A DNA stretch of 64,000 nt, from assembly GCF_002160915.1 (NCBI RefSeq), contig NZ_NFLM01000001.1, positions 124,001-188,000 on the forward strand. The letters run 5' to 3'. Positions 5,833 through 63,037 of this stretch are shown here, piece after piece. Numbering within the stretch: position 1 is the first letter of the stretch; each line of letters opens with the position of its first letter. Source of the stretch: Faecalibacterium sp. An121 (GTDB lineage Bacteria; Bacillota; Clostridia; Oscillospirales; Ruminococcaceae). The position numbers and the translations under genes are program-made. The notes beneath the pieces were generated by a model. That model did no database searches, was not told the origin of the DNA, and was given only the letters and a program-made list of their open reading frames with translations.

Positions 5833-7626
5833 ATGGCAACAAAAGAGAACACTGGCACATCTTCCGGCAGCACCCGCCGCCCCAGCCCTGCGGCTGACAA
5901 CCGCGTCCAGCGCACCCGCCGCCCCATGCGCCGGCCCCGCCGGCCCCAGCCCCCCAAAGGCGGCGCGGCAGTGCCCATCCACATCTACCCTCTGGGCGGC
6001 CTTGGGGAAGTGGGCAAGAATATGACCGTCTATGAGTGCTGCGGCGATATGATCATTGTGGACTGCGGCCTGGTGTTCCCCGACAGCGAGATGTATGGGG
6101 TGGATATGGTCATCCCCGACTTCACCTTTGTGCTGCAGAACAAGGACAAGATCAAGGGGCTGCTGATCACCCACGGCCACGAGGACCACATCGGCAGCAT
6201 CCCCTATCTGCTGCAGAAGATGGACCTGCCGGTCTATGGCACCCGGCTGACCCTGGGGCTGATCCGCAACAAGCTGGAGGAGTTCAACCTGGCAGGCAAG
6301 ACCCGTTTTGTGGAGATCGTCCCCCGGCAGAAACTGCAGCTGGGATGCTTCACGGTGGAGCCCATCCACGTCAACCACTCCATCCCCGATGCGGTGGCCT
6401 TTGCCATCGAAAGCCCCGCCGGCGTGGTCATCCAGACCGGCGACTTCAAGATCGATTACACCCCCCTGGCCTGCGGTCCCACCGACCTGACCACCCTGGC
6501 CGAGTACGGCCGCAAAGGGGTGCTGGCCCTGCTGAGCGATTCCACCAATGCCGAGCGCCCCGGGTTCACCGCCACCGAGCAGAAGGTGGCTGCCGGCGTC
6601 CACAACCTGTTCACCCAGGCGCGGAACAAGCGGATCATCATTGCCACCTTTGCTTCCAACATCTACCGCATCCAGCAGATCATCGACCTGGCGGTGCAGG
6701 AAGGCCGCAAGGTGGCGTTCAGCGGGCGGAGCATGGTCAACAACACCGCCATGGCCCAGGAGCTGGGCTATATGCATATCCCGGACGGCACCCTGATCAG
6801 CGTGGACGAGCTGAACCGCTATGCCCCCGAGGAAGTGGTGCTGATCACCACCGGCAGCCAGGGCGAGCCTTTGAGCGCTTTGTCCCGGATGGCTTCCTGC
6901 AGCCACCGGCAGGTGCGGGTGGGCCCGGGGGATTTCATCATCATCTCGGCCAACCCCATCCCCGGCAACGAAAAGAGCGTCACCAAGATCGTCAACGGCC
7001 TGCTTTTGCTGGGGGCCGAGGTGATCTATGAGAGTATGTACGATGTGCACGTCTCGGGCCATGCCTGCCAGGAGGAGCAGAAGCTGATGCTCACGCTGAC
7101 CCGGCCCAAGTTCTTCCTGCCGGTGCACGGCGAGTACAAGCAGCTGAAAAAACACGCCCTCACGGCGGCCAGCCTGGGCATCCCCCACAGCAACATCCTG
7201 ATCGCGGAGAACGGCTCCAACGTCATCCTGACCCAGGATGAGATCAAGCTGGGAGAGCCGGTCACCGCCGGCGCCGTCATGGTGGACGGCCTGGGCGTGG
7301 GCGACGTGGGCAATGTGGTGCTGCGGGACCGCAAGCACCTGTCGGAGGACGGCCTGGTGATCATCGTGGCCACCGTGGACGGCAAGACCGGCCGTGTGCT
7401 GGCCGGGCCGGACCTGGTCAGCCGGGGCTTTGTGTACGTCCGTGAGAATGAGAGCCTGATGGAGGGCGCCCAGAGCACGGTGGAAATGGCCCTGAACCGC
7501 TGCGTAGAGGAGCGGGTCCGGGACTGGAACAGCGTCAAGACCCGTATGCGGGAGGCGCTGAGCAGCTATATCTACCGGCGCACCAAGCGCAGCCCCATGA
7601 TCCTGCCCGTGCTGATGGAGGTATGA
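5833..7626 (+). CDS. rnjA: Ribonuclease J
   Basis: A 597-residue metallo-beta-lactamase/beta-CASP ribonuclease with 5'-3' exonuclease and endonuclease activity, central to mRNA decay and rRNA maturation in Firmicutes. About 45 basic, proline-rich residues precede the core. The metal motif HGHEDHIGSIPYLL, the downstream NHSIPDAVAF and QTGDFKID motifs, beta-CASP elements (SDSTNAERPG, STFASNIYR-like, SGRSMVNN, TTGSQGEP) and the C-terminal HVSGHACQEE and PVHGEY metal ligands are all visible. The ATG at 5833 is chosen over the one at 5821 because GGAGG (5823-5827) lies between them. The gene appears single-copy in this window, followed by gdpP after 173 bases. Confidence 0.95.
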   Translation: MATKENTGTSSGSTRRPSPAADNRVQRTRRPMRRPRRPQPPKGGAAVPIHIYPLGGLGEVGKNMTVYECCGDMIIVDCGLVFPDSEMYGVDMVIPDFTFVLQNKDKIKGLLITHGHEDHIGSIPYLLQKMDLPVYGTRLTLGLIRNKLEEFNLAGKTRFVEIVPRQKLQLGCFTVEPIHVNHSIPDAVAFAIESPAGVVIQTGDFKIDYTPLACGPTDLTTLAEYGRKGVLALLSDSTNAERPGFTATEQKVAAGVHNLFTQARNKRIIIATFASNIYRIQQIIDLAVQEGRKVAFSGRSMVNNTAMAQELGYMHIPDGTLISVDELNRYAPEEVVLITTGSQGEPLSALSRMASCSHRQVRVGPGDFIIISANPIPGNEKSVTKIVNGLLLLGAEVIYESMYDVHVSGHACQEEQKLMLTLTRPKFFLPVHGEYKQLKKHALTAASLGIPHSNILIAENGSNVILTQDEIKLGEPVTAGAVMVDGLGVGDVGNVVLRDRKHLSEDGLVIIVATVDGKTGRVLAGPDLVSRGFVYVRENESLMEGAQSTVEMALNRCVEERVRDWNSVKTRMREALSSYIYRRTKRSPMILPVLMEV

Positions 7627-57199: not shown

Positions 57200-57236
57200 A
57201 AAAAAGCCGCCCGGAACGTTTCGGTTCCAGGGCGGC
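57200..57236 (-). terminator. Terminator of the two double-glycine-leader genes
   Basis: GCCGCCC-GGAAC with GTTCC-A-GGGCGGC (12 bp, one bulged A), followed on the minus strand by six T. It is 16 bases after the stop of the shorter gene. Confidence 0.88.
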
Positions 57237-57252
57237 ATCCATGACAGATGTG

Positions 57253-57513
57253 TTATAGCTGTTTGAACAGATCCGAGATGCCGTCCACCAGTTCGGTGGT
57301 CAGCTCAAAGATCGAGCGCACCGCTGTGAACAGCAGGGCAGGAACGAAGGTAAACGAGATGGCGAGCACCGAGGAACCCCGATAAAAATCGGTCAGATGC
57401 AGGCTGTCGAGAAAATCGACAATCGCGTCGCTCAGCGGGCCGCCGCCCTGGATCCGACGCTGCTCATCCTCGCCGATCTCCCCGTAATGGGCAGGCATGT
57501 GAAGATTCTGCAT
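57253..57513 (-). CDS. Small exported-peptide candidate with double-glycine leader (86 residues)
   Basis: Residues 6-24 (MPAHYGEIGEDEQRRIQGG) look like a double-glycine leader, aligning without gaps with the leader of the neighbouring gene: MPAHY, then an acidic stretch, then a hydrophobic residue at -4 and -12 relative to GG. Cleavage after G24 or G25 would release about 61-62 residues (GPLSDAIVDFLDSL...), with one hydrophobic helix (SVLAISFTFVPALLFTAV) flanked by amphipathic helices, a bacteriocin-like layout. No cysteines. RBS AAAGGAG is 9-10 bases upstream. No transporter, immunity or modification gene is recognisable nearby. It could also be a membrane peptide with another role; I found no named family. 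Confidence 0.6.
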   Translation of the reverse strand: MQNLHMPAHYGEIGEDEQRRIQGGGPLSDAIVDFLDSLHLTDFYRGSSVLAISFTFVPALLFTAVRSIFELTTELVDGISDLFKQL

Positions 57514-57556
57514 GAATGTTAGCTCCTTTCGTCATAAGATTTCAAAAGCCAGGGGC

Positions 57557-57997
57557 TCAGGCGGCCACAGCCTCAGCCTGCTGCTGGGCAGCCAGCTGCT
57601 CCTGGGTGAGGGCATACGCCTCCTGGAAGACCTTGATCAGCGGGTCCACCAGGGCCATGTAGTAGTAGGACAGCATGCTTACGCCATAGAAGCCGCCCAT
57701 GACGCCCACGATGGCCAGCGCGCCCCACTGGGCGCCGTTCAGAGAGGAGAAGAAATCCTTCATGATCCGGACGCCGGATTTCAGAGTGGTGCCGACAAAG
57801 GCGTTGGCGAGCATACCCACTCCCGCCGAGAAGAAGGCGCCGCTGAGGACCATGAAACCATTCACCAGCACATTGACGCCGAACTGGATGACGTCCTGCT
57901 GGGTGATGCCGCCATCCAGATAGATCATTTCTTCCTGCGGGACAAGGGCGTAGTGGGCAGGCATGCAGACTGCGCCTGCGGAAACAGTGTATTCCAT
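57557..57997 (-). CDS. Membrane-peptide candidate with double-glycine leader (146 residues)
   Basis: Residues 1-30 end MPAHYALVPQEEMIYLDGG, a close match to double-glycine leaders (hydrophobic residues at -4, -7 and -12, EE at -8/-9, GG at -2/-1). The rest (116 residues) is strongly hydrophobic with about three helices and many Gly/Ala (FGVNVLVNGFMVLSGAFFSA, GALAIVGVMGGFYGVSML), ending in a Gln/Ala-rich tail. Its leader aligns with that of the next gene over 19 positions with no gap. It has a good promoter, and AAAGGAG 8 bases from the ATG. It is large for a class II bacteriocin and may be a membrane component or a different secreted protein. Function unknown. Confidence 0.6.
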   Translation of the reverse strand: MEYTVSAGAVCMPAHYALVPQEEMIYLDGGITQQDVIQFGVNVLVNGFMVLSGAFFSAGVGMLANAFVGTTLKSGVRIMKDFFSSLNGAQWGALAIVGVMGGFYGVSMLSYYYMALVDPLIKVFQEAYALTQEQLAAQQQAEAVAA

Positions 57998-58057
57998 ATG
58001 TAGGGCTCCTTTCAAGCTTGGCCCCCGCACAAAGCCGCGGGAACTGACTTTATATGA

Positions 58058-58086
58058 ATTATAGCATATTCGGCAAAAAACAACAA
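58058..58086 (-). promoter_or_regulatory. Promoter of the double-glycine-leader pair
   Basis: On the minus strand TTGTTG (58081-58086), 17 bases, TATAAT (58058-58063). Leader of about 55 bases with a short CCCGC/GCGGG hairpin. Confidence 0.75.
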
Positions 58087-61615: not shown

Positions 61616-62965
61616 TCAGCCGTTGGCCAGCTGATACTCGGTGGCCCAGTTGTCCACAAAGGCAGAGACTACATCGTCCCAGGTGCCGGTGCCGGCCGCA
61701 TAAGCGGTCAGGGCGCTGCCCAGCATATTCTTCCACTCCTCCGAAGGCATGGTGGAGAAGCACCAGTCAACGGGGGTCTTGCCGTCGGCCACGTACTGGT
61801 CCGAGATGGCGTTCAGGGGGTTGGTGGGAGCCTTGGCGCTCTTGAAGGGGATGACAAAGCCCATGTTGTCGGCCATGGCGCTGGTGCCCTCCTCGCTGGT
61901 GACGCACCAGTAGATGAAGTCCAGGGTAGCCTGGATGTCCTCCTCCGAGGACATATTGTTGACGCACCAGTAGTTCTCGGAACCGGTGCACAGGCCCTGG
62001 TTCTCCTCGCCCTCGACGCCGATGTAAATGGGGATCATGCCGAGGTTGTCATCGCCCAGGTCCTTGATATCGGTGTAGGCCCAGGTGCCGTTCTGATAGA
62101 ACACGGCCTGCTTGTTGACGAACTCGGACACGGCGTCGTTGCCGGTCTTGCTGGCCAGGACGGTGGGATCGCAGGTGGAATCGGTGATGTACAGATCAAA
62201 GATCTGCTTGTAGTTGTCCAGATAGGTGCCCTTGATGGCGTCGGTGGAGCTGATGCCGTCGGCCTGGTACTCGTAGTAGATGGGCAGGTTGGCCAGGTGG
62301 GTCTTGAAACGCCAGTCAGAGGAGGAATCCATGCCGGCGGAGGTAAAGGCGCCCTGGATGCCCAGCTCGTCCTTGCGGGCCTGGAGGTCATCGGCCACAG
62401 CCTTCAGGCTGTCAAAATTGGTGATGTCAGCCTCGGTGTAGCCTGCGGCGGTCAGCAGCTCTTTGTTGTAGATGATGCCGTAGGTCTCGATGACGTAAGC
62501 AATGGCGGGGATGGTGTCGCCGTCCTTCAGGACGAAGGAATCACTGGTCACTTCGCCGTACAGTTGAGAGCCGGACAGGTCGTAGCAGTAATCCTTCCAG
62601 TTGTTCAGACCCACGGGGCCGTTGACCTGGAACAGGGTAGGAGCCTCGCTCTTCTCCATCTCGCTCATCAGGGTGGTCTCGTACTGGTTGGAAGCGGCGG
62701 TCACCACGGTGACAGGGACGCCGGTCTGCTCGGTGTAGACGGCGGCCAGGTCCTGCCAGGCCTGATCCTGCTCGGGCTTGAAGTTCAGGAAATAGACCTT
62801 GCCGCTGGCGGCGGGGGCGGCAGCAGAGCTGGAGCCGGCAGCCGTACTGGCGGCGGTGGAAGCAGCGGTGCTGCTGCTGGAAGAACCACAGGCGGCCAGG
62901 ACACCGGCAGCGGACACTGCGCCGGCGGCCTTCAGGAAGTTGCGGCGAGAAATCATCTTTTTCAT
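61616..62965 (-). CDS. Carbohydrate ABC transporter solute-binding lipoprotein
   Basis: A 449-residue CUT1 binding protein. MKKMISRRNFLKAAGAVSAAG is followed by the lipobox LAAC (Cys at about 26) and a Ser/Ala linker (SSSSSTAASTAA). SRRNFLK fits the twin-arginine consensus, so export may be by Tat, although RR lipoprotein signals can also use Sec. The mature domain has the family's alpha/beta pattern. The ATG at 62965 (AGAAGGAGAA before) is chosen because the signal peptide begins there. The probable ligand is a maltodextrin, from the malQ neighbour. Confidence 0.92.
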   Translation of the reverse strand: MKKMISRRNFLKAAGAVSAAGVLAACGSSSSSTAASTAASTAAGSSSAAAPAASGKVYFLNFKPEQDQAWQDLAAVYTEQTGVPVTVVTAASNQYETTLMSEMEKSEAPTLFQVNGPVGLNNWKDYCYDLSGSQLYGEVTSDSFVLKDGDTIPAIAYVIETYGIIYNKELLTAAGYTEADITNFDSLKAVADDLQARKDELGIQGAFTSAGMDSSSDWRFKTHLANLPIYYEYQADGISSTDAIKGTYLDNYKQIFDLYITDSTCDPTVLASKTGNDAVSEFVNKQAVFYQNGTWAYTDIKDLGDDNLGMIPIYIGVEGEENQGLCTGSENYWCVNNMSSEEDIQATLDFIYWCVTSEEGTSAMADNMGFVIPFKSAKAPTNPLNAISDQYVADGKTPVDWCFSTMPSEEWKNMLGSALTAYAAGTGTWDDVVSAFVDNWATEYQLANG

Positions 62966-63037
62966 AGTTCTTCTCCTTCTTGTGCTTTGTGTCAAGTGTA
63001 TTTCAGTCCCGCCCACAGGGCGGAAGTGAGACTGGAT

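Follow-up and report, generated by a model that had tools for sequence, protein, structure and literature searches.

Class IIb bacteriocins consist of two short cationic peptides, both of which are needed for killing, and are encoded next to an immunity gene. A second system for comparison is that of MAM, a protein reported to be anti-inflammatory that, according to PMC12184118, exceeds every other envelope protein of Faecalibacterium duncaniae in abundance. Its link with PCAT is discussed as very specific (PMC12184118, PMC8836110). The double glycine (GG) that ends the MAM leader occupies positions 20–21 (PMC8836110), and a search with MMMPANx(8,11)VxGG brings up MAM-like proteins (PMC12184118). 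A MAM hexamer and a structural role in the cell have been proposed (PMC12184118). Here, we analyze a pair of adjacent genes, A and B. In our preferred reading they form a branch of MAM/PCAT export made up of two genes, a branch that we have not found described.

A pair of genes with double-glycine leaders

The window is the whole 64,000-nt stretch of DNA that was analyzed, from Faecalibacterium sp. An121 (G000; 2.71 Mb in 62 contigs, 99.3% complete). Both open reading frames that a first-pass annotation had placed at 57253–57997 are present there on the minus strand. The features of the locus are as follows.

58058–58086, minus strand: promoter-like site, TTGTTG-17 nt-TATAAT with a TG extension, 60 nt upstream of A
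58006–58012, minus strand: ribosome-binding site of A (AAAGGAG), assigned from sequence
57557–57997 (stop codon counted), minus strand: gene A, 146 aa, GG-leader protein, putative remote MAM paralogue
57908–57997, minus strand: A leader, residues 1–30, ending in DGG; V-12, E-8, M-7, L-4, G-2, G-1
57560–57907, minus strand: A cargo, 116 aa, with two hydrophobic segments (cargo residues 13–31 and 62–80)
57523–57529, minus strand: ribosome-binding site of B (AAAGGAG), inside the 43-nt A–B gap
57253–57513 (stop codon counted), minus strand: gene B, 86 aa, GG-leader protein of a family nearly restricted to the genus
57442–57513, minus strand: B leader, residues 1–24; I-12, E-8, Q-7, I-4, G-2, G-1
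57256–57441, minus strand: B cargo, 62 aa, with one hydrophobic segment, SSVLAISFTFVPALLFTAV
57200–57231, minus strand: terminator-like hairpin (stem-loop 57231–57210) and T run, 3' of B

The mature part of A has the 116 residues first estimated for it, while that of B has 62 rather than about 61, with one hydrophobic segment where a single helix was foreseen. The label "membrane-type" given to both proteins finds moderate support in the hydrophobic segments, two in the A cargo and one in the B cargo.

The common leader block was also correctly recognized. Its 19 residues align without gaps (A, MPAHYALVPQEEMIYLDGG; B, MPAHYGEIGEDEQRRIQGG), with hydrophobic residues at -12 and -4 (V and L in A, I and I in B) and a glutamate at -8 in both. 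A matrix derived from 15 distinct MAM leaders, with A and B outside the training set, was scored against all 90,921 six-frame 19-mers of the window (segments of at least 30 aa). A ranks first with 17.9 bits and B second with 11.8 bits; the third 19-mer scores -6.7 bits. The same order is returned by hmmsearch with the same MAM leaders, at weak E-values (0.13 and 0.66; 1,026 segments). Because a matrix built from MAM alone places A and B far above the third 19-mer, the likeness of their leaders is beyond chance.

The leader positions are well kept across the genus. GG occupies -2/-1 in all A and all B proteins of the 26 loci, window included. E-8 is missing from one of the 26 A leaders and present in all 26 B and all 33 MAM leaders, the last figure not being a count of all MAMs, as two MAM proteins (in G404 and G329) were missed by the motif. 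The residue at -7 is methionine in every A protein; in B it is Q at 18 loci, including the window, L at five, K at two and M at one. Thus, both genes carry the PCAT-substrate pattern of hydrophobic -12/-4, E-8 and GG-2/-1, and at -7, where PCAT substrates have M or L, all 26 A proteins show M but only six of 26 B proteins show either, with Q in the window. The positions kept at a fixed distance constitute the PCAT-substrate signature of PMC12184118.

The MAM set used for comparison consists of the 33 proteins with an MMMPAN or MTFPAN start found by the motif script at 30 loci. It leaves out the shortened-leader MAMs of L101 and L102, the L103 proteins of the trio type (see below) and any MAM match for which there was no locus. 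The shortened leader, MMMPANFSAVNAEVVYGG, has about three residues less (L101:1483-1875, minus strand; L102:1501-1905, plus strand; genomes G404 and G329) and lacks the usual -8/-7 spacing.

A single exporter found on another contig

A Pfam C39 search of the An121 genome gave two matches, which are two pieces of a single ORF on contig 23 (L003:6927-9302). This 791-aa protein contains C39, ABC membrane and ABC ATPase domains and scores 586 bits against TIGR01193 (cut-off 523.85), a "peptide cleavage/export" family with the model name bacteriocin_ABC. Near this PCAT are two proteins with MAM leaders (L003:6425-6817 and 5991-6380), an HlyD protein, an Ig-like-domain protein and a SpoIIID-like protein, surroundings that resemble the MAM arrangement in PMC8836110. 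The same source describes PCAT lying away from mam in several strains. The two MAM genes are adjacent (L003:5991-6817, contig 23), have MMMPAN and MTFPAN starts and are 52% identical; this two-type arrangement recurs in several relatives. A weak match between one of the An121 MAMs and Bacteriocin_IIc (E 0.002) stays under the cut-off.

The remark that no transporter adjoins the pair is true of the neighborhood, and the consequence drawn from it, that processing takes place elsewhere, agrees with the single PCAT found in the genome, in trans, on another contig. The leader-profile and C39 check suggested at the same time did turn up leaders together with one C39 exporter, but this exporter lies beside MAM genes and not beside A–B. 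The one PCAT found elsewhere in the genome probably exports both A and B.

A 20-residue leader profile matches seven ORFs of this genome at E≤10: the two MAMs, A, B and a trio of further proteins. Six of these had gone into the profile as rows, and the last differs from a row by a single residue, so the result means that no further leader proteins were found and is not an independent discovery. The trio consists of three tandem GG-leader proteins, two of them alike, near dnaK/dnaJ (L021:8924-10220, contig 13). The first shows a weak, below-cut-off match to lactococcin G-alpha/enterocin 1071A (E 0.0049), and the trio may represent cargos of this exporter that are closer to bacteriocins.

Genomic context and transcription signals

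B is present in 26 of the 31 genomes of the genus. Among the 22 with a completeness of 90% or more and a contamination of 5% or less, it is present in 20. A adjoins it on the upstream side in all 26 loci, which bears out the description of the pair as a two-gene unit. The motif script detected both genes at 24 of these loci; at the other two the missed partner is present, with the Tyr of its PxxY motif changed to Cys, and no locus was left out. The A–B gap is 43 nt in the window, 24–111 nt over the 26 loci and 24–104 nt in the 20 regions surveyed below. A search for related loci gave a close relative of A in one record, Candidatus Faecalibacterium gallistercoris (L006; 76% identity), where B again adjoins it and the galactokinase-like gene of the window also lies downstream.

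Upstream of the pair, malQ is found in 18 of 20 regions surveyed, ending 283–433 nt before A, and the order lacI-binding protein-permeases-malQ-A-B is seen in 18 of 20, whole or up to the contig end. A phosphotransacetylase gene (above NCBIfam cut-offs) is upstream in G287 and G401, the G401 region being additional to the 20, and no malQ was found in G402. The next ORF of at least 200 aa starts 17–789 nt after B, on either strand and including some antisense frames. In the window, malQ and galT score above NCBIfam cut-offs, while model matches of the galactokinase-like, permease-like and LacI-like genes fall below them. We take the gene at 61616–63016 to be the binding protein; it has no NCBIfam match at E≤1e-10. 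No immunity, kinase, regulator or modification gene was recognized beside the pair in the 20 regions with nine window genes as queries, a flank survey in which small ORFs in the gaps carry no annotation.

The promoter-like site at 58086–58058 has no counterpart of the same form elsewhere in the window. At all 26 loci, the best site within 170 nt of the A start combines TTGTTG, TTGTTA or TTGTCA with TATAAT or TACAAT and a TG extension, at a spacing of exactly 17 nt, although 16–18 nt were allowed, and it ends 34–83 nt before the start used. A consensus promoter scan did not list the window's site, whose first hexamer matches at three of six positions, and listed two other promoters, one ending 3 nt before the B start. 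A fold of -15 kcal/mol or better precedes a T run 3' of B at 21 of 26 loci; three have a weak fold and two have none. At six of 26 loci the A–B gap itself holds a fold of -9 or better before a T run. The promoter said to be common to both genes would correspond to this conserved promoter-like site and the terminator to the hairpin 3' of B; the consensus scan counts three terminators, with no excess over shuffles (mean 2.0). It is plausible that A and B are transcribed as one unit, with a terminator pattern that is not uniform.

Properties of the cargos

Over the 26 loci, the A cargo is 114–131 aa long and near neutral (net charge -2 to +2), and the B cargo is 62–97 aa long and mostly acidic (-7 to +2). 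Every B cargo contains one strongly hydrophobic segment. A cargos contain two (11 loci), one (nine) or none (six), and the 33 MAM cargos one (13) or none (20). The A C-terminus (57560–57580 and relatives) often forms an alanine-rich tail (AAA, VAA, LAA), and one group of A proteins ends in CLPTLVALC or SLPTLVALC. AlphaFold2 models, computed from two-row alignments of the window and L006 only, give three helices for A at low confidence (mean pLDDT 52) and a helix at residues 49–85 for B (mean pLDDT 62).

Among the closest pairs with dS >0.05, eight for A and eight for B, Nei-Gojobori dN/dS is 0.13–0.45. Median values at dS 0.05–1.5 are 0.56 for A (217 pairs) and 0.43 for B (186 pairs), with maxima of 1.11 and 0.74. 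Both genes are under moderate constraint and evolve fast. Pfam and NCBIfam assigned A and B to no family and gave no bacteriocin match at E≤10; a single sub-threshold match of A is to DUF4954 (E 0.048).

These properties bear on the reading of A–B as a class IIb-like bacteriocin of two peptides that is exported in trans and has its immunity gene elsewhere or in a small unannotated ORF. Two adjacent genes with double-glycine leaders, a PCAT of TIGR01193 (bacteriocin_ABC), glycine-containing hydrophobic segments in the A cargo and the sub-threshold Bacteriocin_IIc match of a MAM in the same genome would all suit such a system. However, cargos of 114–131 and 62–97 aa with the charges given above are not two short cationic peptides, no flanking immunity gene was recognized, and neither Pfam nor NCBIfam offers a bacteriocin match. 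Moreover, the pair occurs in 26 of 31 genomes and for the most part at a single locus, unlike a patchy cassette. We therefore consider a bacteriocin unlikely. The broader proposal of a two-peptide antimicrobial or signaling system, made from the window alone, is not supported, given the long, near-neutral or mostly acidic cargos, the lack of a recognized immunity, kinase or modification gene in the flanks surveyed and the largely constant genomic placement.

Relation of A to MAM

Profiles of the leader-free cargos were compared with hhalign (26 rows for A, 33 for MAM). A against MAM scores 31.8, with a probability of 64–71%, an E-value of 3.8e-5 (for a single comparison) and 11% identity; in the reverse direction the score is 28.9 and the probability 52%. 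The highest score among 300 column shuffles of MAM is 17.7, that among 300 eight-column block shuffles 27.9, and reversed profiles score about 14, such that 31.8 tops all 600 shuffles, in one direction. Scores for A–B (13.3) and B–MAM (10.1) are low, and were obtained without shuffle controls; homology of the cargos was rejected in both cases, in agreement with the initial impression that the mature parts of A and B are unrelated.

A leader-inclusive A profile of 146 positions extends to 106–126 in six of eight MAM matches and to 66–74 in the other two. Its matches to the An121 trio involve mainly the leader (4–32, 5–67 and 8–57 of 146), and those in other genera stop at 31–72. A trio-type protein of G367 is aligned over 6–114, so alignment length does not single out MAM. 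Taken together, these comparisons lead us to read the A cargo as a remote homologue of MAM, without amounting to proof. The three helices modeled for A follow MAM's published order; at a mean pLDDT of 52, this is not counted as evidence.

Neither A nor B fits MMMPANx(8,11)VxGG, as both are without the MMMPAN start and V-4. GG lies at positions 29–30 in A and 23–24 in B, neither at the 20–21 of MAM. Since A does not have the MMMPAN motif, we call it MAM-like and not MAM. In G396, the first 42 residues of MAM are identical to the peptide printed in PMC12184118 and the pair is also present, which means that A and B can be sought in published data.

The MAM-like cargo of A raises the question of whether A and B are immunomodulatory surface proteins, exported by PCAT and acting on host cells through NF-kB inhibition, as MAM is reported to do. 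MAM proteins are reported to inhibit NF-kB in transfected cells to a varying degree (PMC8836110). However, B is unrelated to MAM, and the role proposed for MAM itself is structural (PMC12184118), which makes it improbable that A–B has such a role.

Co-occurrence of leaders, pair and exporter

Leader matches (E≤0.01) number 2–8 in 27 of the 31 genus genomes, and 5–8 in 24 of these. The remaining four (G408, G409, G081 and G415) have neither a leader match nor a full PCAT; they may reflect how old the system is, or that it was lost. Around malQ in G409, a 14-kb region with lacI- and permease-like genes contains no A–B by tblastn at E≤1e-3. Full C39 matches are found in 26 of 31 genomes and are absent from G408, G409, G414 and G415; G081 has one weak and divergent match (E 7.5e-8, 293-aa frame). 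The C39 domain of G417 (G417:C1:1947568-1948062) is in a frame of 203 aa, compared to 776–846 aa in the other 25 genomes.

The presence of B agrees with that of a full PCAT in 29 of 31 genomes (Fisher p 7.7e-4, phylogeny ignored) and in all 22 of the better genomes (p 0.0043, phylogeny likewise ignored). The two exceptions are G414 (77% complete), with leaders and B and no PCAT found, and G413 (79% complete), with a PCAT and no B.

A set of 396 genomes of the family included seven from the genus, of which six match the B profile. Outside the genus, it finds one borderline ORF (E 9.8e-4, 490-aa frame), which spans profile positions 24–65 and leaves the leader outside. The leader profile (E≤0.001) matches 11 of the 396 genomes, five of them outside the genus. 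These non-genus leader-like matches are in G246 and G295 (g108), G181 and G372 (g96) and G056 (g57), some being clustered on one contig.

This distribution makes it very improbable that A and B are ordinary small membrane proteins with an unprocessed GG leader, even with the one or two hydrophobic segments of the window's cargos in its favor. The leader positions are kept in 26 of 26 pairs, leader matches are missing from the four genomes named above, all without a full PCAT, and among genomes without a full PCAT leaders persist in the incomplete G414 only. Least credible of all are secreted signals of the pheromone type, since A and B cargos are far longer than typical pheromones and no kinase or regulator was recognized beside either gene. 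GG leaders and PCATs do serve quorum-sensing peptides elsewhere (PMC8836110, PMC12184118).

Proposed function of the pair

Judged by sequence comparison, A–B is likely an operon of PCAT-exported envelope proteins that pairs a MAM paralogue with a one-helix protein, both processed in trans. According to this model, a single promoter would drive A and B, and the 791-aa PCAT beside the MAM genes would recognize the leaders common to both proteins. Its C39 domain would cleave them after GG, and the hydrophobic cargos would be delivered to the cell envelope. There, A, as a distant paralogue of MAM, may build or enter an envelope assembly, as has been proposed for MAM, and B, a one-helix protein always beside A, could serve as its partner or membrane anchor. 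We infer transcription, cleavage, export, envelope location, A–B contact and any function past export; shared descent alone could keep A and B adjacent.

More tentatively, one PCAT could serve several leader-tagged proteins, with A–B as its most conserved unit, forming a heteromeric envelope layer or pore of the MAM paralogue and its one-helix partner, separate from the MAM lattice or combined with it. This extension is conceivable, though we would not at present favor it.

If PCAT also exports A, B and others, then mutating or inhibiting it would disturb many surface proteins at once, and some effects now attributed to MAM could be common to a paralogue that is present in most genus genomes searched. 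The first-pass annotation had singled out the locus as the best candidate in the window for an undescribed system, which is partly right. A full-text literature search gave no description of the A–B pair, although a listing in a supplementary table under a locus tag is possible; MAM and PCAT, in contrast, are published (PMC8836110, PMC12184118).

Comparison with known systems

Like class IIb bacteriocins, A and B are two neighboring GG-leader genes. They differ in their long, neutral or acidic cargos, in having no recognized immunity gene and in being genus-wide. The trio near dnaK/dnaJ has the same leader and the same presumed exporter as A–B. However, it is matched by the A profile chiefly in the leader, and one of its members has the weak lactococcin G-alpha/enterocin 1071A match. 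Compared to MAM, A–B occupies a locus of its own, with its own promoter-like site and away from PCAT; the MMMPAN start is absent from both proteins, and the B cargo is unrelated. Nevertheless, the MAM system is the one they resemble in leader type, with fixed spacing, E-8 and GG common to MAM, A and B, in the remotely similar cargo of A, which is also of similar size, and in the one PCAT found in the genome.
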